A DNA stretch of 34,185 bases from Candidatus Tanganyikabacteria bacterium (lineage in GTDB: Bacteria; Cyanobacteriota; Sericytochromatia; S15B-MN24; VGJW01). The stretch spans positions 1 to 34,185 of the forward strand of contig VGJY01000028.1 of assembly GCA_016867235.1 (NCBI GenBank), given 5' to 3'. The position numbers were made by a program, and so were the translations under genes. Below are positions 7,393 through 27,217 of the stretch, in pieces. The notes beneath the pieces were generated by a model, which did no database searches, was not told the origin of the DNA, and was given only the letters and a program-made list of their open reading frames with translations. Every line of letters begins with the position of its first letter. Position 1 is the stretch's first letter.

Positions 7393-8715
7393 TCAAGCCT
7401 GGGCGGGGACGGTCTGCTTCTTCCAGCGCGCGGCGCCGAGATAGCGGGCGTCTGGGCCGACCGAAAGCTGCTTGTAGCTTTCGTCCAGCGTGGCGCCGGG
7501 GACTTCCTGGAGATCGATGCAATCGACCGGGCAGACGTGCTGGCACAGGCTGCAACCCGTGCACAGGTTGACGTGGATCTCGGGCACGCCCTTGTCCTTG
7601 ACCGGCGACGAGCGGGCGTGGGAGATGCTGATGGCCTGGTAGCCCGAGTCCTCGCACGCCACGTAGCAAAGGTCGCACTTGATGCACTTGGCCCCGTCGA
7701 TGGCGGCCTTGGGCTTGTAGCCCAGCGGGAGCTTGCTGTGGTCGGTGATCTTGGGGACCGTGAGCCCGATCATCTCCTCGAGCGACGAGAAGCCGTGCTC
7801 CTCCATGTAGCGCTCCAGGCCCCGCTTCATCGGCCCGACGATGCCGAAGCCGTGGTGCATGACCTCGGTGCAGACCTGCAAGGTCCGCGCCCCGACCAGC
7901 AGGAACTCGACGGCGTCGCGCCAGTTGGCGATGCCGCCGGTGGCCGAGAGCGGGATGCCGGGGATCTTGCGCGCCAGGTCGGAGATGGCCTTGAGGGCGA
8001 TCGGCCGCACGGCCACCCCGCTGTAGCCGCCGTAGGTGCTGTGCCCGGCGACCGAGGGCAGGGGCTCGAAGGTGTCGATGTCGACGCCCATCATGATGTT
8101 GACCGTGTTGATCGCCGTGAGGGCGTCGGCGCCGTTGTCGGCGGCCGCCCGGCCGGGCACGGTGATGTCGGTGACGTTGGGCGACAGCTTGATCAGGATA
8201 GGGACCTTGGCGACTTCCTTGGCCCATTTGGTGATGTTGCCCGTGATCTCGGGGTTCTGGGAGCACACCGAACCCATGCCGCGCTCGGGCATGCCGTGCG
8301 GGCAACCAAGGTTGAGCTCCATGAGGTCGCAGCCGGCGTCCTGGAACTCGACCACCAGTTGCTGCCAATCCTCCTTGGCGCTACCGGCCGCCATGATCGA
8401 GCCCACGAGCACGTGCTCGGGGTAGCGATCCTTGATGATGCGGCATTCCTCGAGCCACACGCTGGTCGGCCTGTCGGAGATCAGCTCGATGTTCTGGAAG
8501 CCGATCATCCGGCTGCGGCCGGCGTGCAGCGCGGCAAAGCGCGGGTTGGGGTTTTCGATCTTCTCGCCATGCGGGCCGGCGGTCTTGATGATCGCCCCGC
8601 CCCAGCCGGCGTCGAACGCCCTCATGATCATCTCGCCGGTGGTGGTGGGCGGAGCCGACGCGAGCATGAAGGGGTTGGGGAACCTCACGCCGCAGAAATC
8701 GACTTCCAGGCTCAA
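7393..8715 (-). CDS. preA: NAD-dependent dihydropyrimidine dehydrogenase subunit PreA
   Basis: Reduces uracil and thymine to the 5,6-dihydro forms, the first step of reductive pyrimidine degradation. In this 440-residue protein, residues 1-310 form the FMN barrel of the DHOD/DPD group (LNLGCPHGMPERGMGS followed by Cys151, the likely active-site acid). The C-terminus holds two 4Fe-4S ferredoxin motifs: Cys344/347/350/354 and Cys385/388/391/395. This is the E. coli PreA layout; the partner flavoprotein PreT is not in the window. The start is a TTG at 8715 fixed by GAGGAG eight bases upstream. It heads a three-gene minus-strand unit with an aminotransferase and a His-rich protein; hydantoinase and beta-ureidopropionase genes are absent here. 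Confidence 0.9.
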   Translation of the reverse strand: MSLEVDFCGVRFPNPFMLASAPPTTTGEMIMRAFDAGWGGAIIKTAGPHGEKIENPNPRFAALHAGRSRMIGFQNIELISDRPTSVWLEECRIIKDRYPEHVLVGSIMAAGSAKEDWQQLVVEFQDAGCDLMELNLGCPHGMPERGMGSVCSQNPEITGNITKWAKEVAKVPILIKLSPNVTDITVPGRAAADNGADALTAINTVNIMMGVDIDTFEPLPSVAGHSTYGGYSGVAVRPIALKAISDLARKIPGIPLSATGGIANWRDAVEFLLVGARTLQVCTEVMHHGFGIVGPMKRGLERYMEEHGFSSLEEMIGLTVPKITDHSKLPLGYKPKAAIDGAKCIKCDLCYVACEDSGYQAISISHARSSPVKDKGVPEIHVNLCTGCSLCQHVCPVDCIDLQEVPGATLDESYKQLSVGPDARYLGAARWKKQTVPAQA

Positions 8716-10074: not shown

Positions 10075-10644
10075 TCAGAATACGCCCGGAATCAGCCTTG
10101 CGGTTCGCCGGCAGTAATCCCGGTACGTCGCTCCGAATGCGGCCGTCAGGGCGGCTTCCTCCACGCGGATGCGGAAGAGCAGCACCGCGAGGGGGATGCC
10201 CACCAGCACCAGCAGACAGGGCCAGTTCTGCAGCGCGATCCCGATGCCGAGCAGCGACAGCAGCGAACCGGAGTAGCCGGGGTGGCGCATGAAGCGGTAG
10301 ACTCCCGCCGTGATCAGCTCGTGGCCTTCCTGGATGGCGACGTGGATCGTGAAGAACCGCCTGAGGGTCAGGATGGCCGACCACCGCAAACCGATGCCCG
10401 CGACGACCAGCACGATGCCCGCGACGGGAAGCGCGGGGTGCTCGAAGGCGAAGCGGCCGATGCCCTTCCACCAGCAGATCAGGGCGGCCGCGATGGCCAG
10501 CAGGGTGCCGCCCACGCCGATGAAGAGGGAGTTCCTGTCGTGCCGCCGCGCCTCGCGGCGCGAGTACGTGGCCAGGAGCACGCCGCACTCGGAGAGCGCC
10601 CAGAGCGCGGAAAGGGGCAGGACCACGACCTTGGCCAGATCCAC
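10075..10644 (-). CDS. Membrane methyltransferase of the isoprenylcysteine carboxyl methyltransferase (ICMT/PEMT) family
   Basis: A 189-residue integral membrane protein with about five transmembrane segments. The C-terminal half carries the family signature: GVYRFMRHPGYSGSLL at about 114-129 (SAM/substrate-binding RHPGYSG at 120-126), RIRVEEAAL with Glu162/Glu163, then FGATYRDYCRRTARLIPGVF. These enzymes methylate lipid-linked or prenylated carboxyl, amino or hydroxyl groups at the membrane; the substrate here is unknown. The start is a GTG at 10644 with only a weak ribosome site. It is divergent, across 120 bases, from the radical SAM operon, which also contains a membrane protein and a methyltransferase, so it may work on the same lipid. 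That functional link is inference. Confidence 0.82.
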   Translation of the reverse strand: MDLAKVVVLPLSALWALSECGVLLATYSRREARRHDRNSLFIGVGGTLLAIAAALICWWKGIGRFAFEHPALPVAGIVLVVAGIGLRWSAILTLRRFFTIHVAIQEGHELITAGVYRFMRHPGYSGSLLSLLGIGIALQNWPCLLVLVGIPLAVLLFRIRVEEAALTAAFGATYRDYCRRTARLIPGVF

Positions 10645-10731: not shown

Positions 10732-10740
10732 TGGTATGAT
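10732..10740 (+). promoter_or_regulatory. Extended -10 promoter of the radical SAM operon
   Basis: TGG followed by TATGAT (10735-10740) matches the extended -10 pattern TGnTATAAT in a GC-rich background. It would start transcription near 10747, about 18 bases before the ATG at 10765. No -35 hexamer is evident, which is tolerated at extended -10 promoters. Confidence 0.42.
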
Positions 10741-10764: not shown

Positions 10765-11457
10765 ATGGCTTCTTCTCGACGGTTCTTCGACCTCTACCAG
10801 TATCTCGCTCCCGTGGTGCTCTTCCCGTTGAGCTACTGGCTCTGGTTTCGCGTCGTGGGCGACCACCGGACCGTCCTGGAGATCGTGTCCATCCCCGTCG
10901 TGGCCTTCTACGTCATTCCCGCGCTGGGGACCAACAAGCTGGGGCTCTGGGAGTTCAACACCAGGCACCGCATCGGCGGATTCAGGATCCAGCACGGGTT
11001 CGTGTTCGGTTCCGCCACCAGCCTCATCTCGGCGCTGGCGCTCGGCTACGGCCAGGAAGTTCCGCTGTCGGCCATGTCGTTGCTGCGCGCCGGGCTATTC
11101 CTGGGCGCCCTGCTCGGTATCGTCAACTGGTGGTACGACATCGTCGCCATCAAGGCGGAGGTCATCAGGGTCTACACTCGCGCCGCCTTCGAAGGACGGG
11201 GAGCCGAGGCGATCGCCACCGAGTACGCTCCCGTCTACTTCGGCACTTTCGGCTTCCTGTACGGCCTCTACCTGGCCGTGGTCCAGAGCGGCTGGTTCGC
11301 CCAGGCCACTCTCCCCGTCGTCGCGGGCGTTTATGTACTGGCTCTGGGAGCGGTTCTCGTGGGTCCCGTCCTGGCCTTCGTCTGCCTGTCGCTCGCGACC
11401 ACCGGCAAGAGCGGGCTCCAGTCCTACCGCGACGCCACGTACCGCGATGCTGCATAG
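10765..11457 (+). CDS. Polytopic membrane protein of unknown function, first gene of radical SAM operon
   Basis: A 230-residue protein with six or so hydrophobic segments (roughly 12-30, 37-53, 73-93, 100-121, 151-171, 180-213). Charged loops include KLGLWEFNTRHRIGG and VNWWYDIVAIKAEVIRVYTR. The polar residues around FNTRHR, WWYD and EYAPVYF could form an active site or ligand pocket, but I recognise no named family. I use ATG 10765, with AGG a few bases upstream; a TTG at 10750 adds five residues. The 3' end overlaps the next gene by 11 bases, tying it to the methyltransferase and the three radical SAM genes. It may be a membrane-embedded enzyme, or a carrier for the lipid product of the pathway. 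Confidence 0.78.
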   Translation: MASSRRFFDLYQYLAPVVLFPLSYWLWFRVVGDHRTVLEIVSIPVVAFYVIPALGTNKLGLWEFNTRHRIGGFRIQHGFVFGSATSLISALALGYGQEVPLSAMSLLRAGLFLGALLGIVNWWYDIVAIKAEVIRVYTRAAFEGRGAEAIATEYAPVYFGTFGFLYGLYLAVVQSGWFAQATLPVVAGVYVLALGAVLVGPVLAFVCLSLATTGKSGLQSYRDATYRDAA

Positions 11458-12277
11458 CCTCTACTGCCGCCTGTCGCGAGGAAATCCGTGGCTGAAGGCC
11501 AGGGCCTTTTCCCTGGGATACGAGACGCTGTCGCGGGTCTTCTTCCGCCAGCGGCCCGTGCACTTCCTGAACTACGGCTTCGAGAGCGCCGACTCCCTGA
11601 AGCCCCGGCTCCTCGCGGAAGACGAACCGGACCGCGCTTCCATCCAGCTATATCACCACCTGGCGTCCCAGGGGCCCGTGGCGCATGCCCGGGTCCTGGA
11701 GATCGGCTGCGGGCGCGGGGGCGGGGCCTCCTATCTGGCGCGGTACTTCCAGCCTCGCGAGGTGATCGGGATGGACATCTCGCCCTCCGCGGTGCGGTAC
11801 TGCCGCTCCAGCCACGGGGCGGAAGGCTTGAGCTTCTTGGTAGGAGACGCCGAGAGCGTGCCGTTTCCCGCCGCTTCCTTCGACGTGGTGCTCAACGTCG
11901 AGTCGTCGCACTGCTACGGCTCCATGAGCCGCTTTCTCGCCGAGGTGCGCCGCATCCTGCGTCCGGGGGGCCACTTCCTGTTCTGCGACGTGCGCCCCGC
12001 CGCCGACGTGGAGGCCCTGTGCCAGGCCATGGCGGACAGCCGGCTGGAAATCGTCTCGAGGGGCGACATCACGCCCCAGGTGCTCCGCGCCCTGGAGCGG
12101 GAAAGCGATACGCGCAAGGAGCAGATCAGGCGCGTCTTTCCGCGCTGGCTCCACGCGTCGGTCTTCGACTTCTCCGGGGTCGCCCCGGGCACGGTCTTCG
12201 AGAGCTTCTCCGCCGGCACCAGGCGCTACCTGAGCTTCATGCTGCGCGCTCCCGTGGGGAGCGAGGCCGCGCCGTGA
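11447..12277 (+). CDS. SAM-dependent methyltransferase, Rv2952-like (phthiotriolone/phenolic glycolipid methyltransferase type)
   Basis: A 276-residue class I methyltransferase. Motif I is VLEIGCGRGGG at 83-93; downstream are GMDISPSAV, GDAESVPFP, SFDVVLNVESSHCY and LRPGGHFLFCDVR. The stretches HFLNYGFES, ASIQLYHHLA and NVESSHCY closely match my memory of mycobacterial Rv2952, which methylates the hydroxyl of phthiotriolone dimycocerosates, and of related polyketide/lipid methyltransferases. A hydroxyl on a lipid or polyketide is therefore the best substrate guess. The ATG at 11447 lies inside the end of the membrane protein gene; upstream codons in frame belong to that overlap. The 3' end overlaps the first radical SAM gene by 4 bases (GTGA). 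Confidence 0.85.
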   Translation: MLHSLYCRLSRGNPWLKARAFSLGYETLSRVFFRQRPVHFLNYGFESADSLKPRLLAEDEPDRASIQLYHHLASQGPVAHARVLEIGCGRGGGASYLARYFQPREVIGMDISPSAVRYCRSSHGAEGLSFLVGDAESVPFPAASFDVVLNVESSHCYGSMSRFLAEVRRILRPGGHFLFCDVRPAADVEALCQAMADSRLEIVSRGDITPQVLRALERESDTRKEQIRRVFPRWLHASVFDFSGVAPGTVFESFSAGTRRYLSFMLRAPVGSEAAP

Positions 12278-13692
12278 GGGTCCTGCTGGTCAAGCCGCCT
12301 CCGGTCAAGAACTCCGAGGTCGAGAACGTCCTGGAGCCCCTCGAACTCCTCTCCCTGGCGGGTGCCCTCGAAGGGCACGAGGTCCACCTTTGCGACCTCC
12401 GCGTGGAGGCCGGGCCGTTCGAGCGGAAGCTCCGGGATCTCGCTCCCGACCTCGTGGGGTTCACCTGCCTCATCATGGACGTGCCCGCCGTGCTGGCCAT
12501 GAGCCGCCAGGTCCGCGAGATCGCCCCCGCCGCGGTGGTCGTCGTGGGCGGGCACCATCCCACCCACTGCCCGCAAGATTTCAACGTGCCGAGCATCGAC
12601 GCCATCGTGCTCGGGATGGGCGAGCAGGCGCTGCGCGACATCCTGGTCGCGGCCGGCGCCGGGCGAGACTTCCGCGACGTCCCGGGGCTGGCCCTTCCCG
12701 GCGAGGGAGCGGTGCACTTCACGGCGCCGCGGCACCATCCCGCGAGCCTGGACGAACTGCCCTTTCCGGACCGCCGCGTGCCTGGCTACCGCCCCGAGCG
12801 CTACAAGGTCTTCGGCCTCATGAAGATGCAGTCGGTCAACACCTCGCGGGGCTGCACCGCCCGCTGCAAGTTCTGCCTCGTCTGGCAAGAGATGCGGCGC
12901 GTCTGCCTCCACAAGAGCGCGGGCCGGATCTTCGCCGAGATCCAGCGCATCGGTCCCGAGGTTCCGCTGGTGGGCTTCGTGGATCCTCACTCCTTCGTCG
13001 ATGGCGCCGATCGGATGAACGAGCTTGCCGGCCTCATCGAGCGTGCCGGGCTGAAGAAGCGCTACGTGATGTCGCTCCGGTCGAGTTCCGTCGTGAAGTA
13101 CCCCGAACAGATCGCGCGCTGGGCGAAACTCGGCCTGAGCGCCGTGTCGATCGGTCTCGAGGCCATCACCGACTCGCGCCTGGCGGCGCTGCGCAAGGGG
13201 CAGAACGCCCAGACGGGCGACCGGGCGCTCCGGATCCTCGCCGACAACGGCATCCACGTGATCGCGAACTTCATCGTGAGCCAGGACTTCACCCGCGCCG
13301 ACTTCGACCAGCTCCAGCGCTACGTCTACGACAACCGGCTCCAGTCGCTCCGCTTCTCCATCCTCACGCCGCTGCCGGGCTCGGAGCTGTGGGAGGAAGT
13401 CAAGCACCTGGTGCGGTCGCGCGACCCCGAGCACTACGATCTCCTGCATTCCGTGCTTCCCACCTTGCTTCCCGACAGGGAGTTCCACCGCGAGGTCCTG
13501 ATGCTGTATCGCCGGAGCTACAGCTGGCGCCACTGGCTGCGGGTCACGGGGAGCCACTGGGCCTTTCGCCTGGGTCTGAGCAAGCGGCGCGTCCCCAAGC
13601 TCCTGGGCGCCGCGATGGTCGTGTACATGAAGTACAAGCTGGCGAAGATCCAGCGAAATCACGTCGCATTCCGCGAAGCCGGGACCGCATGA
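12274..13692 (+). CDS. B12-binding-domain radical SAM enzyme (HpnR-like), first of three
   Basis: A 472-residue protein. Residues 1-130 form a cobalamin-binding Rossmann-like domain (VGFTCLIMDVP, VVVVGGHHPTHCP). Residues about 185-400 form the radical SAM barrel with the 4Fe-4S motif CTARCKFC (Cys194, Cys198, Cys201), then SIGLEAI and a basic C-terminal tail. The end of the barrel (LTPLPGSELW ... HYDLLHSVLPTLLP) resembles what I recall of the hopanoid C-3 methylase HpnR, so a methylation at an unactivated carbon of a lipid or terpenoid is plausible. No hopanoid cyclase or other hpn gene is nearby, so I do not use that name. The GTG start overlaps the preceding TGA. The basic, aromatic C-terminus (YSWRHWLRVTGSHWAF) may touch the membrane. 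Confidence 0.87.
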   Translation: MRVLLVKPPPVKNSEVENVLEPLELLSLAGALEGHEVHLCDLRVEAGPFERKLRDLAPDLVGFTCLIMDVPAVLAMSRQVREIAPAAVVVVGGHHPTHCPQDFNVPSIDAIVLGMGEQALRDILVAAGAGRDFRDVPGLALPGEGAVHFTAPRHHPASLDELPFPDRRVPGYRPERYKVFGLMKMQSVNTSRGCTARCKFCLVWQEMRRVCLHKSAGRIFAEIQRIGPEVPLVGFVDPHSFVDGADRMNELAGLIERAGLKKRYVMSLRSSSVVKYPEQIARWAKLGLSAVSIGLEAITDSRLAALRKGQNAQTGDRALRILADNGIHVIANFIVSQDFTRADFDQLQRYVYDNRLQSLRFSILTPLPGSELWEEVKHLVRSRDPEHYDLLHSVLPTLLPDREFHREVLMLYRRSYSWRHWLRVTGSHWAFRLGLSKRRVPKLLGAAMVVYMKYKLAKIQRNHVAFREAGTA

Positions 13693-15311
13693 CGAGCTCC
13701 CGCGCCGCCCTGAAAGTCGGCCTCGTCGAGCTTTACGCCGACTCGGTCGCGCACCGCGTCCAGATCAAGTTTCCGTCGCGCTCGATCGATCTCCTCGCGG
13801 CCATCCTCGGCCAGAACGGCTTCTCCCGGGTCGAGACCTACAACCCCATCTACGACGGCACGCGCGGCCGGGTCACCCGGAGCGATGTCGAGCGCCTGGC
13901 GTCGTACGACGCGGTCGGCTTCTCGGCCATCTCGTCCACGCAGAACCTCTCGTACGATCTGGCGGCAAAGCTCAGGAAGCTCAATCCCCGGATCAAGATA
14001 GTCTTCGGCGGTTACCACACGACCTGCCTCCCCGAGGAAACCCTCGACCACGCCGACATCGCCGTCCTCAACGAGGGCGACCGGACCATCGTGGACGTCA
14101 TGGATCGCATCGCCGAGCACAAGGAACGGCCCGTGCTCGCCGACGTGCCGGGCATCGTCTTCCGGGACGAGGACGGCGCCATCCGCCACACGGCGCACCG
14201 GCCGTTGCTGACGGTCGAAGAACTGGAAGCGCTCCCCGTTCCGGCGTTGCCCGCGCGGGTGCGCGGGAAGATGAACTGCGGCAAGGTCGTGCTGGCACGC
14301 GGTTGCCCCTTCCAGTGCAGCTTCTGCACCATCAGCGACCACTTCGGGAGACGGGTGCGGGCCGTGAGCGTGGAACGGTCGGTGGAGATCATCGAGCGCT
14401 CCATCACCCAGTTCCCGGGGCTCCACCTGTTTGCCGACGACAATTTCGCGCTCAATCCCGAGCGCGCCAAGCGCATCCTCGAGCGCATCCTCGAAAAGGG
14501 GCTGAAGATGCCGTCGTGGTCGGCCCAGGTGCGGGTTGACGCCGCGTTCGACGACGACCTCCTGAAACTCCTCCGGCGCGCCGGCTGCCGCAAGGTGTTC
14601 GTCGGCCTCGAGAGCATGAACGACGAGAGTCTCAAGCTGCTCAACAAGCGGTCGACCCTGGAAAAGAACGATCGGGCCATCCGTCGCTTTCACGAGGCGG
14701 GCCTCATGATCCACGGCCACTTCATGTTCGGCACCGACGCCGACAGCGTGGACACGGTGCGCACCACCGCCGAGTACGTGCGCAAGATGGGCCTCGACAC
14801 GGCCTACTTCCTGTTCATGAGCCCCGGCCCGGGTTCGCCGCTGGCTCAAAGGTACCAGGCCGAAAACAAGCTCATCACGCGCAACTGGGCGCGCTACGAC
14901 GGCAATTCCGTGTGCGTATACCCCGACCAGGTGCGCCCCTCGGAGCTCAAGAAGGCCGTGGACCAGGCCTACCTCCACTTCTACTCGCCGCTCGAAGCCC
15001 TCCGGTACCTGTTTCGCCCCAGGAAGAAGCTCACGACGCTCCTGCTCCGGACGGTGGGCTATCCGGTCATGCGGTATCTCATCCGTCGCGACCGGCCCTA
15101 CGTGGCCGACCTCGAAAGGCTCGAGCGCTGGGTCATGGACTTCGAGGCCGCGTTCGGGAAGGTGAAGGAAGACCCCGGCGTCCCTCCGGCGGCGCGGGAG
15201 GAGTTCTTCCGGGCCTGGAGCGACCGGGCGCGGGCGCTGGCGCCCGATTTCCAGGAATTCTGCCGGCGGAAGATCGATCTGGCCGCCGCGGGCCCGAAGG
15301 ACCAGCCCTGA
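13689..15311 (+). CDS. B12-binding-domain radical SAM enzyme, second of three
   Basis: A 540-residue protein. The cobalamin-binding domain spans about 8-140 (YDAVGFSAISSTQN, KIVFGGYHTTCLPEE, NEGDRTIVDVM). The radical SAM domain spans about 200-420 with GCPFQCSFC (Cys206, Cys210, Cys213), FADDNFALNP, VFVGLESMNDE and HGHFMFGTD. The C-terminal 120 residues are an extra domain with a basic, hydrophobic stretch (EALRYLFRPRKKLTTLLL ... YPVMRYLIRR), probably a membrane-binding helix pair, followed by a charged helical tail. Enzymes of this class methylate, form C-C or C-S bonds, or contract rings on lipids, peptides and antibiotics; the reaction here is unknown. ATG 13689 overlaps the previous stop (ATGA). 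An open frame extends upstream inside the previous gene but is a shadow. Confidence 0.87.
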   Translation: MTSSRAALKVGLVELYADSVAHRVQIKFPSRSIDLLAAILGQNGFSRVETYNPIYDGTRGRVTRSDVERLASYDAVGFSAISSTQNLSYDLAAKLRKLNPRIKIVFGGYHTTCLPEETLDHADIAVLNEGDRTIVDVMDRIAEHKERPVLADVPGIVFRDEDGAIRHTAHRPLLTVEELEALPVPALPARVRGKMNCGKVVLARGCPFQCSFCTISDHFGRRVRAVSVERSVEIIERSITQFPGLHLFADDNFALNPERAKRILERILEKGLKMPSWSAQVRVDAAFDDDLLKLLRRAGCRKVFVGLESMNDESLKLLNKRSTLEKNDRAIRRFHEAGLMIHGHFMFGTDADSVDTVRTTAEYVRKMGLDTAYFLFMSPGPGSPLAQRYQAENKLITRNWARYDGNSVCVYPDQVRPSELKKAVDQAYLHFYSPLEALRYLFRPRKKLTTLLLRTVGYPVMRYLIRRDRPYVADLERLERWVMDFEAAFGKVKEDPGVPPAAREEFFRAWSDRARALAPDFQEFCRRKIDLAAAGPKDQP

Positions 15312-15313
15312 TC

Positions 15314-16774
15314 GTGCGCGTGGGTCTGGTAGCCACCAATCGCAACGACTACGACCATCCCATCACTCCCATCGGGCCGCTGCATCTGGCCGCCGGGCTC
15401 CGGGCGCGGGGCCACGAGGTCCGCCTGTTCGACTGCATGTTTGACCACGCTTCGGCCGAGGAGTCGCTGCTCGCGTGGGTCGCGGCCGCTCGGCCCGACG
15501 CCGTCGGCATCTCGATTCGCAACGTCGCCTCCGTGCTCGGTCAGCGCGAGCACGACCTGGATCGGCTCGCGGGCCTGGTGAAGCGCCTGCGCGCGGTCAT
15601 GCCCCGGCAGATCATCCTGGGCGGTGCGGGCTTCAGCCTGGTGCCCAGGGCGATCATGGACAGGCTCCAGGTGGATCTGGGCATCGTGGGCGAGGCCGAT
15701 CGCTCCCTGCCGTCGCTCCTCGAACGCCTGGGCGACGAGGCGGCGTACGCCGGGATTCCGGGTCTGGTCCACCGGACGCCGGCAGGGGGGTGGATCGAGA
15801 ATCCCCCGGACCAGGACGTCGACCTGGATTTCATCCCGACCCAGAGCCTGGCCGATCTCGACAACCGGCGCTACCGCAAGCGCGGCGGCAACATCGGCGT
15901 GTACTCCCGCAAGGGGTGCGCGATGCAGTGCACTTATTGCGCGGAGCCCTGCCTCAACGGCGCGACCATGCGGTTGCGATCGCCGCGCCTCGTGGTCGAC
16001 GAGATCGAGAAAGTCACGAAGGAGGCGGGCTACCCCTTCGTGGGGTTCGCCGATACCCTGTTCAACTTCCCGCGCGACCACGCCATGGAGCTGTGCCGGG
16101 AAATCATCCGGCGCCGGGTGAAAGTCCGGTTCTGCATCGAAGGCAATCCCGTGGGTCAGGATGCCCGGAGCGTCGACCTCCTCGCGGAGGCGGGCTGCAT
16201 CGGCGTGGACTTCTCGGTGGAGTCGGGCTCCAGCCGGATGCTCCGCGCCATGCGCAAGGGCTTCACCGCCGAGGATGCGCTGCGGGTGGCGGCTCTCTAT
16301 GCCGAGCGCGGGATCTCCTACGCCGCGGGCTTCCTCATCGGCTGTCCCGGCGAGGATCTCGAAAGCGTCCGCGAGTCCGTGCGCGTGGCCGAAGCCCTCG
16401 AGAGACCCGGCGTCGTCTACTTCGGTGTCGGCGTCCGCGTCTTTCACCAGGCGGAGCTGGCGCGGCAACTCGGCGCCAGCCGGCCTCACCAGGGGACTCC
16501 CGATGCCTACGGCCTATCGTCGTACCTCAGCGAGACCTTCGACGCGAATTGCGCCCGGGAACTCCTCGCGTGCTACCGGCGCCACGACGTGGTCCTGATC
16601 TCGCACCAGTTCAACGAGCGGACCGTGCGGTTCGTCAAGCGGCTCTCTTTTCTGCCCCGAGCGCGCCCGGCCTGGCGCGCCGCCGCCTGGCTCAACCATC
16701 TCGAGCGCTTGCGGACCTTGCGGCGCTGCCCGCTGTACTGGGACGATCGAGAGCGCGCCTTCCGGAGCGTGTAG
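15314..16774 (+). CDS. B12-binding-domain radical SAM enzyme, third of three
   Basis: A 486-residue protein starting at GTG 15314, two bases after the previous stop. The cobalamin-binding domain is about 1-140 (PIGPLHLAAGLRARGHEVRLFD, PDAVGISIRNV, ILGGAGFSLVP, GIVGEADRSLP). The radical SAM motif is GCAMQCTYCAEPC (Cys202, Cys206, Cys209). Later barrel strands include FVGFADTLFNFP, RFCIEGNP, CIGVDFSVESGSSRML and AAGFLIGCPGE. It differs clearly from its two neighbours, so the three are paralogues with distinct steps rather than recent duplicates. The C-terminal 70 residues are Arg-rich, without an obvious extra domain. It is the last gene of the operon; 126 bases without a visible terminator follow before the molybdoenzyme gene. 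Confidence 0.86.
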   Translation: MRVGLVATNRNDYDHPITPIGPLHLAAGLRARGHEVRLFDCMFDHASAEESLLAWVAAARPDAVGISIRNVASVLGQREHDLDRLAGLVKRLRAVMPRQIILGGAGFSLVPRAIMDRLQVDLGIVGEADRSLPSLLERLGDEAAYAGIPGLVHRTPAGGWIENPPDQDVDLDFIPTQSLADLDNRRYRKRGGNIGVYSRKGCAMQCTYCAEPCLNGATMRLRSPRLVVDEIEKVTKEAGYPFVGFADTLFNFPRDHAMELCREIIRRRVKVRFCIEGNPVGQDARSVDLLAEAGCIGVDFSVESGSSRMLRAMRKGFTAEDALRVAALYAERGISYAAGFLIGCPGEDLESVRESVRVAEALERPGVVYFGVGVRVFHQAELARQLGASRPHQGTPDAYGLSSYLSETFDANCARELLACYRRHDVVLISHQFNERTVRFVKRLSFLPRARPAWRAAAWLNHLERLRTLRRCPLYWDDRERAFRSV

Positions 16775-16900
16775 GCGAGATCGCTCCGTCCACGGTGTGA
16801 CGGCCGACCACGTACGAGATATCCCCCAAGATCACGGATCTGCTTGGCGGCCAGGCATCGGAAGATCACGTACGCACCCTTCGTGCGACAGGAGCGTCCC
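16775..16900. other. Intergenic region before the molybdoenzyme
   Basis: No coding potential is supported here. ACGTACG occurs twice (near 16811 and 16868). A TTG in frame at 16844 could extend the next gene, but it lacks a ribosome site. No clear promoter or terminator is seen. Confidence 0.4.
16890..16894 (+). promoter_or_regulatory. Ribosome binding site fixing the GTG start of the molybdoenzyme
   Basis: AGGAG lies six bases before GTG 16901, whereas the longer TTG start at 16844 has no such site. The shorter start also gives the usual N-terminus of the 2Fe-2S domain. Confidence 0.7.
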
Positions 16901-19525
16901 GTGGCAGTCGAACTACGCAAGGCAGATGAGGTCGCAATAGCGTTCTTCCTGAACGGCGCGCGCACGCTGCTCACGGTCCGAGAGGACGAAAAGCTGCTCG
17001 AGACGCTGCGCGAGCGCTGCGGCATCGTCTCCCCCAAGAACGCCTGCATGCCTGTTGGCGGCTGCGGGGCCTGCACGGTGCTCGTGGGCGGCAAGCCCAC
17101 TCTTAGCTGCGTGCTGCCGTCCCGGAGCGTCGACGGAAAGGAGGTGTTGACCCTCGAAGGGCTCGCGGATCGCGACCGCGCGGCCCTGGCGGACGGCTTC
17201 GTCCGGGTGGGCGGCTTGCAGTGCGGTTTTTGCGCGCCCGGCGTGGCCCTGCGGACCAAGGCCCTGTACGACCGGGACCCGCACGCCGGGGCCGAGGAGT
17301 GCCGGAAGGCCCTGCAGCCTCACATCTGCCGCTGCACGGGCTACAAGAAGCTCATTGACGGCATGCGGGAAGCCGGCAGGGCGCTCCGCGGCGAGGCCGG
17401 CGAAGCCTGCGAAGGCGCGGGTTGCGGTCGGATCGGCTCGAGCCTGGAGCGGTACCAGGGCCGCGACCTCGTGCTGGGCCAGCGGGAGTTCGTGGACGAC
17501 ATGCGGCTGCCCGGCATGCTGCACGGCGCCCTGGTGTTCGGCGCCCACCCCCGCGCCCGGGTGCTCTTCATCGACGTGGGCCCCGCGCTGCTCATCCCGG
17601 GAGTGCGGGCGGCAATCACGGCCGCGGATGTCCCCGGCGAGAGGCTCCGCGGCCTGGTCGAGCGCGACTGGCCGGTCTTCGTGGCCGAGGGCGAGATCAC
17701 GCGGTACGTCGGGGACGTGCTGGCGGCGATCGCCGCGGACGACGCCCACACCGCCCGGCTCGGGGCACAGGCCGTGCGCGTGACGTACGAAGTGCTCGAA
17801 CCGGTGACGAGCCCCGCCGAAGCGCTGCAACCCGGTGCGCCGCGCCTTCATCCCGGGGGGAATATCCTCTCGACTTCCCGCGTCGTGCGAGGCGACGTCG
17901 AGGCGGCCCTCGCGGGCTGCGCGCATGTCGTGTCCGAGGTCTTCGAGACGCAGTTCATCGAGCACGCGTTTTTGGAGCCGGAAGCGGCGGTGGCGGTTCC
18001 GGAGGACGGCGAAATGCTGCGGGTCTTCACGCAGAACCAGGGCGTCTTCGACGATCGCCGGCAGCTCGCGCGGATCCTGGCCATTCCCGAAGAACGGCTC
18101 CGCGTGACGCTGGTGGCCGCGGGCGGGGCGTTCGGCGGCAAGGAGGATCTCACGGTCCAGCCCTACGCGGCGCTGCTGGCGCTGCGGACGCGGAAACCCG
18201 TCAAGCTCGCGCTGAGCCGCCAGGACAGCATCCGCATGCACCCCAAGCGGCACCCGATGCGGCTGGAGTATACGGTCGGCTGCGACGGGGCGGGCATGCT
18301 GCAGGCCGTGAAGGTCCGCCTGGTGGGCGAGAAGGGGGCCTACGCGTCGGTCGGCTCGAAGGTCGTCGAGCGGGCGGCCGGCCACGCGACGGGCGCGTAC
18401 GCCGTGCCGAACGTGGCCGTCGAGGCCTTGGCGGTGTACACGAACAACCCGCCATGCGGGGCGATGCGGGGTTTCGGGGTCAACCAGACCGCGTTCGCCA
18501 TCGAGGGCTGCCTGGATCGGCTGGCCGAGAAGGCGGGCCTCGACGGCTGGGAGATCCGCTACCGCAACGCCTTGCGTGATGGCGCGGTGTCCACGCCGGG
18601 CGAGCGCATGACCCACGCCATGGGCCTGCGCAAGACCCTCGAGGCGGTGCGCGACGTGTATCGCGGCGCGCGTTTCGCCGGCATCGCCTGCGCCATCAAG
18701 AACGTGGGAGTCGGCAACGGCAAGCCCGACATCGGCCGCGTGCGCCTGGTGGTGGCTGCCGGCGGCGAGACGATCACCGTGTTCACGGGGCACTCCGAGA
18801 TGGGTCAAGGTCTGTTCACGATCCTGGTGCAGGTGGTGTGCGAGGAGACCGGGTTGCCTCCCGCATGCGTCCGGGTCGTCACCGACACCGCGCGGCCGGT
18901 CGATTGCGGCATGACCACGTCGTCGCGGGCCACGGTGCTGGCGGGCCGCGCCGCGATCGCCGCCTGCGCCGAGCTGCGCCAGGCGCTTTCGGAAGCCGGA
19001 AGCCTGGCGCAACTCGCCGGTCGCGAGTTCCACGGCGAATACGTCTTCGACCGGAGCAGCCCGCTCGGCAGCGACGATCCCGAGCCGATCATGCACCTGA
19101 CCTACGGCTACGCCACGCAGGTCGTGCTGCTGGACGACGAAGGCCGCCTCGCCAAGGTGGTGGCCGCGCACGACGTGGGCCGCGTGCTGAACCCGCACCT
19201 GCTCGAGGGCCAGATCGAGGGCGCCCTCCACATGGGGCTGGGTTTCGCCCTCACCGAGGAACTGGTCGTCGAGCGCGGCGTGCCGCGGCAGAAGGGCCTG
19301 CACGACCTGGGCATCCTGCGCGCGCGGGACATGCCCGAAGTCGAGGTGATCTTCGTCGAGGAGCCGGCTCCCGAGGGGCCCTACGGCGCGCGGGGGGTCG
19401 GGGAAATCGGCCTGGTGCCGACCGCCGCGGCCGTGGCCGGGGCCCTGCACGCCTTCGACGGGATTCGCCGCACCAAGCTGCCCATGCTCGACTCGCCGGC
19501 GGCCCGGGCGATCAGGCGGAGCTGA
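16901..19525 (+). CDS. Xanthine dehydrogenase/aldehyde oxidase-type molybdoenzyme with fused 2Fe-2S domains, no FAD domain
   Basis: Hydroxylates purines, aldehydes or N-heterocycles with water-derived oxygen. In 874 residues it has a plant-type 2Fe-2S domain (Cys49, Cys55, Cys58, Cys70; a C-x5-C spacing rather than the common C-x4-C). A second 2Fe-2S domain follows (Cys108, Cys111, Cys143, Cys145; GLQCGFCAPG and HICRCTGYKK), then the molybdopterin-binding domains. Typical stretches are GGAFGGKEDL, AMRGFGVNQT, GHSEMGQGL and the catalytic Glu835 in GARGVGEIG. There is no FAD domain and no adjacent FAD subunit, as in Desulfovibrio aldehyde oxidoreductase and in the selenium-dependent xanthine dehydrogenase group. 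The overall layout and size remind me of that latter group, but its usual accessory genes are not here. Presence of preA about 8 kb away fits nucleobase catabolism; the substrate is not decided. Confidence 0.87.
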   Translation: MAVELRKADEVAIAFFLNGARTLLTVREDEKLLETLRERCGIVSPKNACMPVGGCGACTVLVGGKPTLSCVLPSRSVDGKEVLTLEGLADRDRAALADGFVRVGGLQCGFCAPGVALRTKALYDRDPHAGAEECRKALQPHICRCTGYKKLIDGMREAGRALRGEAGEACEGAGCGRIGSSLERYQGRDLVLGQREFVDDMRLPGMLHGALVFGAHPRARVLFIDVGPALLIPGVRAAITAADVPGERLRGLVERDWPVFVAEGEITRYVGDVLAAIAADDAHTARLGAQAVRVTYEVLEPVTSPAEALQPGAPRLHPGGNILSTSRVVRGDVEAALAGCAHVVSEVFETQFIEHAFLEPEAAVAVPEDGEMLRVFTQNQGVFDDRRQLARILAIPEERLRVTLVAAGGAFGGKEDLTVQPYAALLALRTRKPVKLALSRQDSIRMHPKRHPMRLEYTVGCDGAGMLQAVKVRLVGEKGAYASVGSKVVERAAGHATGAYAVPNVAVEALAVYTNNPPCGAMRGFGVNQTAFAIEGCLDRLAEKAGLDGWEIRYRNALRDGAVSTPGERMTHAMGLRKTLEAVRDVYRGARFAGIACAIKNVGVGNGKPDIGRVRLVVAAGGETITVFTGHSEMGQGLFTILVQVVCEETGLPPACVRVVTDTARPVDCGMTTSSRATVLAGRAAIAACAELRQALSEAGSLAQLAGREFHGEYVFDRSSPLGSDDPEPIMHLTYGYATQVVLLDDEGRLAKVVAAHDVGRVLNPHLLEGQIEGALHMGLGFALTEELVVERGVPRQKGLHDLGILRARDMPEVEVIFVEEPAPEGPYGARGVGEIGLVPTAAAVAGALHAFDGIRRTKLPMLDSPAARAIRRS

Positions 19526-25000: not shown

Positions 25001-27139
25001 CTACTTGATGAAGCTCGTCCAGACCTTGCGGACCCGCGGTTCGCGGACGTCCGACAGGATCAGGTTGCCGTCCGTGTCGAGGGCCATGCCGTTGACCTCG
25101 TTGAGGGAGACCTGGCGCGCCTCGCCATCCTGGAACGAATACGGTGGCGGCAAGCCGACCGCCTCGCAGCGGTCGTTGGTCTGCTGCGGCAGGCCGGCCA
25201 GCGTCCAGATGAGGGGCGTGGTGTCGTAGACCGTCGCGATGCGGATCAGCCGGTTGTCCGAATCGGCCAGGAGCATGCGGTTGGCCTTGTCGAACAGCAC
25301 CTTGTGCGGGAAGCGGAGGTGCGCGTCCCGGGTCTTGATGCCGTAGAGCCCCTTCTCAGCTGCCTGAGCGCCGTAGCACAGGGCCTTGCGCGGCGCGCCC
25401 GGGACGGGCGGCGGCAACTCGCCGACCACGTGCTCGACGACCCCGGAGCCCAGGTCGATGCGCACGATGATGTGGTCGCCGTTGTCCGTCACGTAGAGCC
25501 AGCGCTTGCCGCCATTCGCGTGGAACGTCAGCTTCGACGGCTGGTTGAAGACCACCTGGTCCACCGTCGTGGGCACGACCGTGCCCTCGAACACGCCATC
25601 CTTCTTGCCGGCGAGGATCGACAGCGGGGCGGTCGCGTCGGCGCCGCCGGCCAACGCCATCCCCTTGCTGCGGACGGTCGCCCGGGTGAGGTCGACCATG
25701 AAGATGTCGGGGTTTTCCTTGTCGTCGAATGCGACGTCGTCGACCGACGTGAAGGGGCCCATCTCGTCCCCGGCACCCGTGTAGACGTCCACGAGGAGCC
25801 GGGGGTTCTTCCACTTGGCCGGGTCGAAGATGTCGAGGAAGCTGCCCCCTTCCCCGTCGGCCTGCGGATTCGCCGTGGGCAAGGGATTCAGCAGCGCGAT
25901 CCACTGCTTCCCGGAGTCCATGATGACGACCTCGCCGGTCTTGAGGGCCACCATGGTGCCCGGCACTTCCCAGACGCCCTTGCCGGGCACGTCGATGTGC
26001 GTGCGCGGGGCGCCGGAGCCCGCCGGGAACTCGGTCACCCGGGTCTGGTTGTCGTTGACGTGCAGCACGAAGAGGTTGCCCTTGTTGGGCGCCTCGGCGG
26101 GCGCGACGGCCACCGCCATCACCCGGTCGCCCTCAGGGATCTTGCCCTTGGTGTCGACGGTGGTGATCGCTAGCGGCCGCGCCACCCAGTCGGGCAGCGT
26201 CGTGGGCTTCTTGACGAGGCGGATCAGGTTGACCCACTCGTCCGAGAGCGACTTGTCGGTGCCGGTCCCCAGGAGCACGGCGTAGCGCTGCCGCAGGACC
26301 GGGATGTTGTTGATCGCCAGGTCGGACGCGCTGAACTTCGCGATTCCCTCCCGGTCCAGGAACGTGCCTGTCAGGCTGACGATCTTGACCCAGCTTGCCG
26401 TCGTCTCCGAGGTGGCGAACACGTCCTTGAGGGCGAACTCGAACTCCCTGGCCTTGCCGCGGAGGAACTCGGTGGCGAGCGTGGAGGCGAGGTTGACCGT
26501 GACGCTAGGGGACGCCTCGGAAGCCGTGTTGACCAGGGCGGTCAGGCGGCGGTTGTCCGTGAGCATCACGTTGACGATCACGTCCAGTTCGCGCGGCGCC
26601 TTCGGCAGATCGAACTTGCCGGCCGCGTCGGTGACCGTGCCGATCAGCTTGTTCTCGTCGTTGACCCAGAAGCGCTCGTCCGGCGAAGTCAGGTAGACGA
26701 AGCCGTACTTCACGGCATCCTCCGCCAGCGCCGACGCGCGGAAGCCGGCGGCATTGTTGGACACGAGTCCGGCGGCATTGTTGGAAACCAGGCCGGCGGC
26801 GTTGTTGGAGACCAGGCCCGCGGCGTTGTTGGAGACCAGGCCCGCGGCGTTGTTCGAGACCAGCGCGGCCGGGCCCTTGACGGTTCCGCCGAGGCCGGCG
26901 GCGTTGTTGGACACCAGGAAGCCGAGAGCCGCGGCCTTGAGTGCCCCGGCCGGCGGCGGTGTCGGCGGCGCGGTCGTGACGTCGCCGGGAAGAGCCGTCG
27001 GTTTGGGGGTGGCCGGAGCATCGTCCCCCGCCGCGGCGACGGTCTTGGGCGGATTGCCCCCCAGGAACGGCAAGAGGTTGCACCCGGAGAGCGCCAGCGC
27101 TACGGCTATCGCCAGGACCTTGCTTGACTGACGCTGCAT
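25001..27139 (-). CDS. Lipoprotein with VSNNAAG repeats and NHL-type beta-propeller
   Basis: A 712-residue lipoprotein: signal VLAIAVALALSGC, lipidated Cys20. Residues about 22-70 are a Pro/Thr/Ala-rich spacer. Residues about 75-132 hold six copies of LVSNNAAG (one apart, five in tandem). The next part has YGFVYLTSPDERFWV, GTVTDAAGKFDLPKAP and TDNRRLTALVN, shared with the neighbouring lipoprotein. The remainder is a propeller with NHL-like repeats (KLTFHANGGKRWLYVTDNGDHIIVRI, HKVLFDKANRMLLADSDNRLIRI, NGMALDTDGNLILSDVREPRVRKV). ATG 27139 is preceded by GGGGGAA; a TTG at 27157 adds six residues. It lies 78 bases after the kinase gene on the same strand. The role is likely surface binding; the partner is unknown. 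Confidence 0.83.
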   Translation of the reverse strand: MQRQSSKVLAIAVALALSGCNLLPFLGGNPPKTVAAAGDDAPATPKPTALPGDVTTAPPTPPPAGALKAAALGFLVSNNAAGLGGTVKGPAALVSNNAAGLVSNNAAGLVSNNAAGLVSNNAAGLVSNNAAGFRASALAEDAVKYGFVYLTSPDERFWVNDENKLIGTVTDAAGKFDLPKAPRELDVIVNVMLTDNRRLTALVNTASEASPSVTVNLASTLATEFLRGKAREFEFALKDVFATSETTASWVKIVSLTGTFLDREGIAKFSASDLAINNIPVLRQRYAVLLGTGTDKSLSDEWVNLIRLVKKPTTLPDWVARPLAITTVDTKGKIPEGDRVMAVAVAPAEAPNKGNLFVLHVNDNQTRVTEFPAGSGAPRTHIDVPGKGVWEVPGTMVALKTGEVVIMDSGKQWIALLNPLPTANPQADGEGGSFLDIFDPAKWKNPRLLVDVYTGAGDEMGPFTSVDDVAFDDKENPDIFMVDLTRATVRSKGMALAGGADATAPLSILAGKKDGVFEGTVVPTTVDQVVFNQPSKLTFHANGGKRWLYVTDNGDHIIVRIDLGSGVVEHVVGELPPPVPGAPRKALCYGAQAAEKGLYGIKTRDAHLRFPHKVLFDKANRMLLADSDNRLIRIATVYDTTPLIWTLAGLPQQTNDRCEAVGLPPPYSFQDGEARQVSLNEVNGMALDTDGNLILSDVREPRVRKVWTSFIK
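26744..26863 (-). repeat. Five tandem 24-bp coding repeats (LVSNNAAG)
   Basis: Five consecutive 24-base units each encode LVSNNAAG, with only a few synonymous changes between them (GCATTG/GCGTTG, GACACG/GAGACC forms). Near-identity at the DNA level points to recent slippage or unequal crossing-over. A sixth copy sits at 26894-26917. Confidence 0.9.
26894..26917 (-). repeat. Sixth, separate LVSNNAAG repeat unit
   Basis: The same 24-base unit as the tandem array, separated from it by 30 bases encoding a Gly/Lys-rich spacer. Confidence 0.85.
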
Positions 27140-27217
27140 TGGCTCGACTTCCCCCAAAGCTCGGACGTTGGACCTATTCCCGCTCAGGGCGCCCCGTACA
27201 CCTTGCGCCCGGGAATG

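Follow-up and report, generated by a model that had tools for sequence, protein, structure and literature searches.

What would a bacterium make with three cobalamin-dependent radical SAM enzymes, a methyltransferase and a membrane protein, all encoded in one compact operon? The locus that raises this question lies on a 34,185-bp contig, which was analysed as a whole and is referred to here as the window. The contig (C28) belongs to a 6.12-Mb MAG (G000) whose host is an uncultured member of Cyanobacteriota, probably of the non-photosynthetic class Sericytochromatia. We rejected the idea that the contig is a contaminant of the MAG, as its tetranucleotide signature agrees with other contigs of the genome (0.81-0.90).

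The five genes, P1 to P5 (10765-16774; Table 1), lie on the same strand, and all five were judged real; their GC3 of 0.87-0.91 is like that of the adjoining genes. A previous sequence-only reading had described the genes as overlapping or 2 bases apart, and the junctions read from the sequence agree: P2 begins at an ATG and overlaps P1 by 11 bp, P3 (GTG) and P4 (ATG) each overlap the preceding gene by 4 bp, and a 2-bp gap separates the stop of P4 from the GTG of P5, which should be taken as the start of this gene, since position 15308 carries a CTG codon. The same reading placed an extended -10 promoter in front of the operon. The match itself (TGGTATGAT) is real, yet it counts little as promoter support, since 19 of 100 shuffles also hold at least one match, which is near chance level, and a search for a -35/-10 pair for the operon found none. 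While the gene set it listed stands, it overlooked a divergent ICMT-like gene (Pfam ICMT, 65.8 bits, cut-off 24) that is 42-43% identical both to a gene adjoining the P1 homolog in the genome UBA8530 and to a second copy on contig C23 of the same MAG. Further along the contig we observed a gene directly downstream of the operon (16844-19525, + strand) for a xanthine-dehydrogenase-like protein fusing iron-sulfur and molybdopterin domains, an upstream PreA-like gene of the dihydroorotate dehydrogenase family (7393-8715, - strand), and a gene (25001-27157, - strand) for a predicted lipoprotein-like protein with the tandem peptide repeat VSNNAAGL near its N-terminus.

Table 1. Positions in the window of the operon genes, the divergent gene and the promoter-like match.
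Feature	Position	Strand	Basis or remark
ICMT/PEMT-like membrane methyltransferase, probable associated gene	10075..10644	-	divergent from operon; Pfam ICMT
Extended -10 like match TGGTATGAT	10732..10740	+	sole such match in window
P1, polytopic membrane protein, undescribed family	10765..11457	+	six long helices; no Pfam or NCBIfam match
P2, class I SAM methyltransferase	11447..12277	+	Pfam Methyltransf_11; NCBIfam nearest phthiotriol MTase / Mtf2
P3, B12-binding radical SAM enzyme, HpnR-like	12274..13692	+	HpnR model; tree
P4, B12-binding radical SAM enzyme, sister to groups a-d	13689..15311	+	HpnJ/BchE models; tree
P5, B12-binding radical SAM enzyme, TsrM/ladderane-radical-SAM-like	15314..16774	+	TIGR04072; PDB TsrM 6wte

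P3, P4 and P5 each exceed the Pfam cut-offs for the radical SAM and B12-binding domains and each carry a CxxxCxxC motif, so that on their sequences all three belong to the cobalamin-dependent radical SAM superfamily; the claim of three divergent enzymes of this kind in a row is thus upheld. None of them passes any curated NCBIfam cut-off. P3 reaches 195 bits against the model of the hopanoid C-3 methylase HpnR (TIGR04367; cut-off 650), P4 reaches 144 bits against HpnJ (cut-off 578) and 140 against BchE (cut-off 481), and P5 reaches 243 bits against the ladderane-associated model TIGR04072 (cut-off 360), with a further match to the PDB structure of TsrM (6wte, E 3.5e-36). In the phylogeny that had been proposed as a check, here carried out on 42 proteins, P3 belongs to the HpnR clade (support 100/98) as sister to an enzyme of S. 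cattleyicolor with 37% identity, P4 is sister to the whole clade of the enzyme groups a-d introduced below (99/97), and P5 is placed with TsrM by a long-branch join that is unsure.

P3 thus shares with HpnR both its B12-binding/radical SAM architecture and its grouping, but it is only 31% identical to it and scores far below the cut-off. Together with HpnJ being the best model for P4, this grouping would fit a role in hopanoid modification, combining HpnR-like C-methylation with HpnJ-like side-chain chemistry. We consider such a role very improbable: the HpnJ score is likewise far below its cut-off, and hopanoids are an unlikely substrate in a 100%-complete MAG that yielded no squalene-hopene cyclase (PF13243), whereas two genomes of the same family (G001 and G004) have it. 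For P5, the best NCBIfam model is that of the proposed ladderane B12/radical SAM enzyme (TIGR04072, Kuste2803; PMC2649909), and the anammox ladderane proposal also pairs such an enzyme with SAM methyltransferases (PMC2649909). P5 differs from the proposed ladderane enzyme, however, in scoring below the cut-off, in having no fatty-acid synthase genes beside it and in being near TsrM as well.

P2 is a class I methyltransferase. Its best NCBIfam models are phthiotriol dimycocerosate methyltransferase, i.e. Rv2952 (NF045823; 233 bits, cut-off 300), and the fatty-acid O-methyltransferase Mtf2 (229 bits, cut-off 400); "Rv2952-like", as the gene had been called, is therefore a fair description, although P2 remains under both curated cut-offs.

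Peptides, sugars and antibiotics are also among the substrates of B12-radical SAM enzymes, and this counts against a lipid as the substrate. The operon might make or tailor a diffusible secondary metabolite, antibiotic- or signal-like, with P1 as an exporter or immunity protein and with no cell lipid involved. The closest relative of P3 that we found belongs to a megaplasmid cluster of S. cattleyicolor that includes three B12-radical SAM genes, P5 is similar to TsrM from the thiostrepton pathway, and the operon is unique to one genome in its class; orthologs of P3 and P5 were absent from 18 genomes of the class, where the best relatives are about 27-30% identical. Nevertheless, we judge a secondary metabolite to be a rather unlikely product, as no NRPS, PKS, precursor peptide, transporter family or scaffold enzyme was seen on the contig, P1 does not match a known transporter fold, and P2 is closest to lipid methyltransferases. 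The S. cattleyicolor cluster (L036, 8454-17409) is unannotated and includes a ligase-like gene beside its three B12-type radical SAM genes, with two dioxygenase-like genes nearby (by reading). It was rejected as a copy of the same system, since only P3 is clearly similar and P1 and P2 have no match there.

The membrane protein P1 proved to be the most informative gene of the operon. Its AF2 model (pLDDT 78, pTM 0.80) predicts six long helices, in keeping with the polytopic protein described before, and matches no PDB fold at E<=0.001. We rejected an assignment of P1 as a known transporter or prenyltransferase, since neither Pfam nor searches of PDB sequences and folds gave a match. When 84,980 species were scanned by pattern and sets of 386, 295, 298 and 399 genomes were searched by profile, full-length relatives turned up in only four other genomes: UBA8530 (apparently identical with G005, a genome of the same order as our MAG), Zhengella mangrovi and two of Elusimicrobiota (L016 and G601). 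These relatives are 38-48% identical to P1, and the five sequences share invariant columns and the conserved motifs YQY, GTN, HGF.FG and YD along their full length. Weak matches in G302, G671 and G1039 (E about 8e-4) are partial, two of them with stops, and were taken as chance; viral structures, plasmids and viral contigs yielded no relatives. B12-radical SAM enzymes adjoin the P1 family gene in all five loci, with two to four such genes in each of the other four.

Gene calls in the compared loci were made by ORF picking and reading. The radical SAM genes beside the P1 homologs fall into four orthologous groups, a to d, each with a member in our MAG, with support of 97/89 (a), 100/100 (b), 100/99 (c) and 100/98 (d); the clade of group d also takes in gut-bacterial relatives. 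In Zhengella the gene order is d-a-GNAT-c-b-P1, and in G601 it is a-GNAT-c-b-P1, the contig ending before d. Genes of groups a-d usually occur with GNAT-like genes (the second protein encoded in these clusters shows the fold of a GNAT) and often with GH3-like genes, for which the Elusimicrobiota cluster gives a Pfam match; an AurF-like gene is confined to the Zhengella locus and a desaturase-like gene, by reading, to that of G601. ICMT-like genes adjoin P1 in the window and in UBA8530, and they adjoin groups c and b on C23.

Our MAG carries all four groups together with the GNAT gene, on two contigs. On C23, the second ICMT-like gene is followed by c and b, which share 53% and 60% identity with their Elusimicrobiota counterparts, while C8 holds groups d and a with a GNAT gene that passes the Pfam cut-off. 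No GH3 gene was seen in the stretches of this genome that were read, and the copy in the window is the only P1 that was found in it, the stretches read around the loci on C23 and C8 containing none. Among 386 Cyanobacteriota, orthologs of group b that score above 700 bits are confined to G000 and UBA8530, which are the two P1-positive genomes (Fisher p 1.3e-5 for co-occurrence, with small counts and kinship ignored). P1 marks a set of four B12-radical SAM enzymes.

Related clusters of radical SAM, GH3 and GNAT genes were also seen in three other Cyanobacteriota (L079, L080, L081 and L082; G099, G076 and G296), which we take to be gut Gastranaerophilales. Their enzymes all lie outside groups b and c in the tree, and a full-length P1 was not detected in these genomes. 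One radical SAM gene of L082 (13179-14855) seems to be broken by a repeat, which is present again at 16426-16881. Our MAG itself holds two further paralogous pairs (L050, 6883-9805 on C81; L051, 7054-10047 on C5), in which a protein of 271-287 aa with the shared motif EVAGxGMGASKK...MLESEALAVY is encoded ahead of a B12-binding-type radical SAM gene; these are possibly a peptide-modifying system.

Since P1 occurs together with P2-P5 in one genome only, the case for linking these four genes with the core pathway depends on the overlaps between genes, which tie P1 to P2-P5 and so count in favour of a connection. P3, P4 and P5 fall inside none of the clades a-d, which counts against it, and no relative of P2 was found in the P1-bearing loci. 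It could therefore be that P1-P5 form a self-contained system for tailoring a cell lipid or isoprenoid, that the a-d pathway is unrelated, and that P1 serves radical SAM enzymes generally; the distinctness of P3-P5, and the fact that only P1 and the ICMT-like gene are shared with the other loci, would agree with this. We think such independence unlikely, as P1 sits with a-d genes in the four other genomes and the core loci of our MAG have no P1 of their own in the stretches read. The order of the five genes, for which conservation had been suggested as a check, was not found elsewhere, and a P5 scan of the contigs of 84,980 species, which detects close relatives only, gave none. As to whether the set is merely a scattered family, P1 and enzymes encoded outside the window are conserved, while P1-P5 as they stand are unique to this MAG. 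That several radical modifications are made on one hydrophobic molecule produced elsewhere, as the sequence-only reading had proposed, fits both the relatives of P1 beside B12-radical SAM genes and the four-enzyme set with GNAT elsewhere in the genome; its remark that no named pathway has such a gene set still stands after a literature search.

We suggest that the operon serves as an accessory module for tailoring within a larger B12-radical SAM pathway whose substrate is a hydrophobic molecule held in the membrane, and we give this reading a probability of roughly one half. We infer that all seven enzymes, a-d together with P3-P5, act in one pathway. A hydrophobic substrate is suggested by P1, the ICMT-like genes and the lipid-methyltransferase kin of P2, and an N-acylated scaffold by the GH3 and GNAT genes. 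The GH3- and GNAT-type enzymes of the fuller clusters would build this lipoamino-acid-like scaffold. Acting at the membrane, where P1 may be an anchor, flippase or chaperone, a-d would add C-methyl groups or form C-C bonds at unactivated carbons of the scaffold. P3, P4 and P5 might add up to three more radical modifications in this organism, and P2 and the divergent ICMT-like enzyme could methylate a hydroxyl or carboxyl group. The product would probably be a multiply methylated or cyclised lipid.

The closest comparison for such a scaffold is the OlsH/OlsI synthesis of ornithine lipids; in planctomycetes, N-acyl ornithine is produced by OlsH, an enzyme of the GH3 type (PMC12493201). P1-type clusters resemble this system in often holding GH3 and acyltransferase-like genes. 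They differ from it in that the Elusimicrobiota GH3 scores 43 against an OlsH cut-off of 620, in that no GH3 gene was seen in the window, and in the radical enzymes, which are not mentioned in PMC12493201.

It is possible, and we propose it tentatively, that these genes define an undescribed class of bacterial lipid, in which up to seven B12-radical SAM enzymes work around a new membrane protein that resembles no solved structure. The pathway would then be scattered through Cyanobacteriota, Elusimicrobiota and Alphaproteobacteria and be present here in an expanded version. The operon is probably one module of a scattered, uncharacterised pathway, with four other B12-radical enzymes elsewhere in the genome, and the product is likely an unusual lipid. 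One of the carriers, Zhengella mangrovi X9-2-2, is a named strain, which puts the pathway within direct reach of testing. Several lipid biomarkers used in geology, such as the 3-methylhopanoids, arise through radical methylation of unactivated carbons, and four to seven enzymes of this type assembled in one pathway with an unknown membrane protein indicate a heavily modified lipid that has so far escaped recognition.
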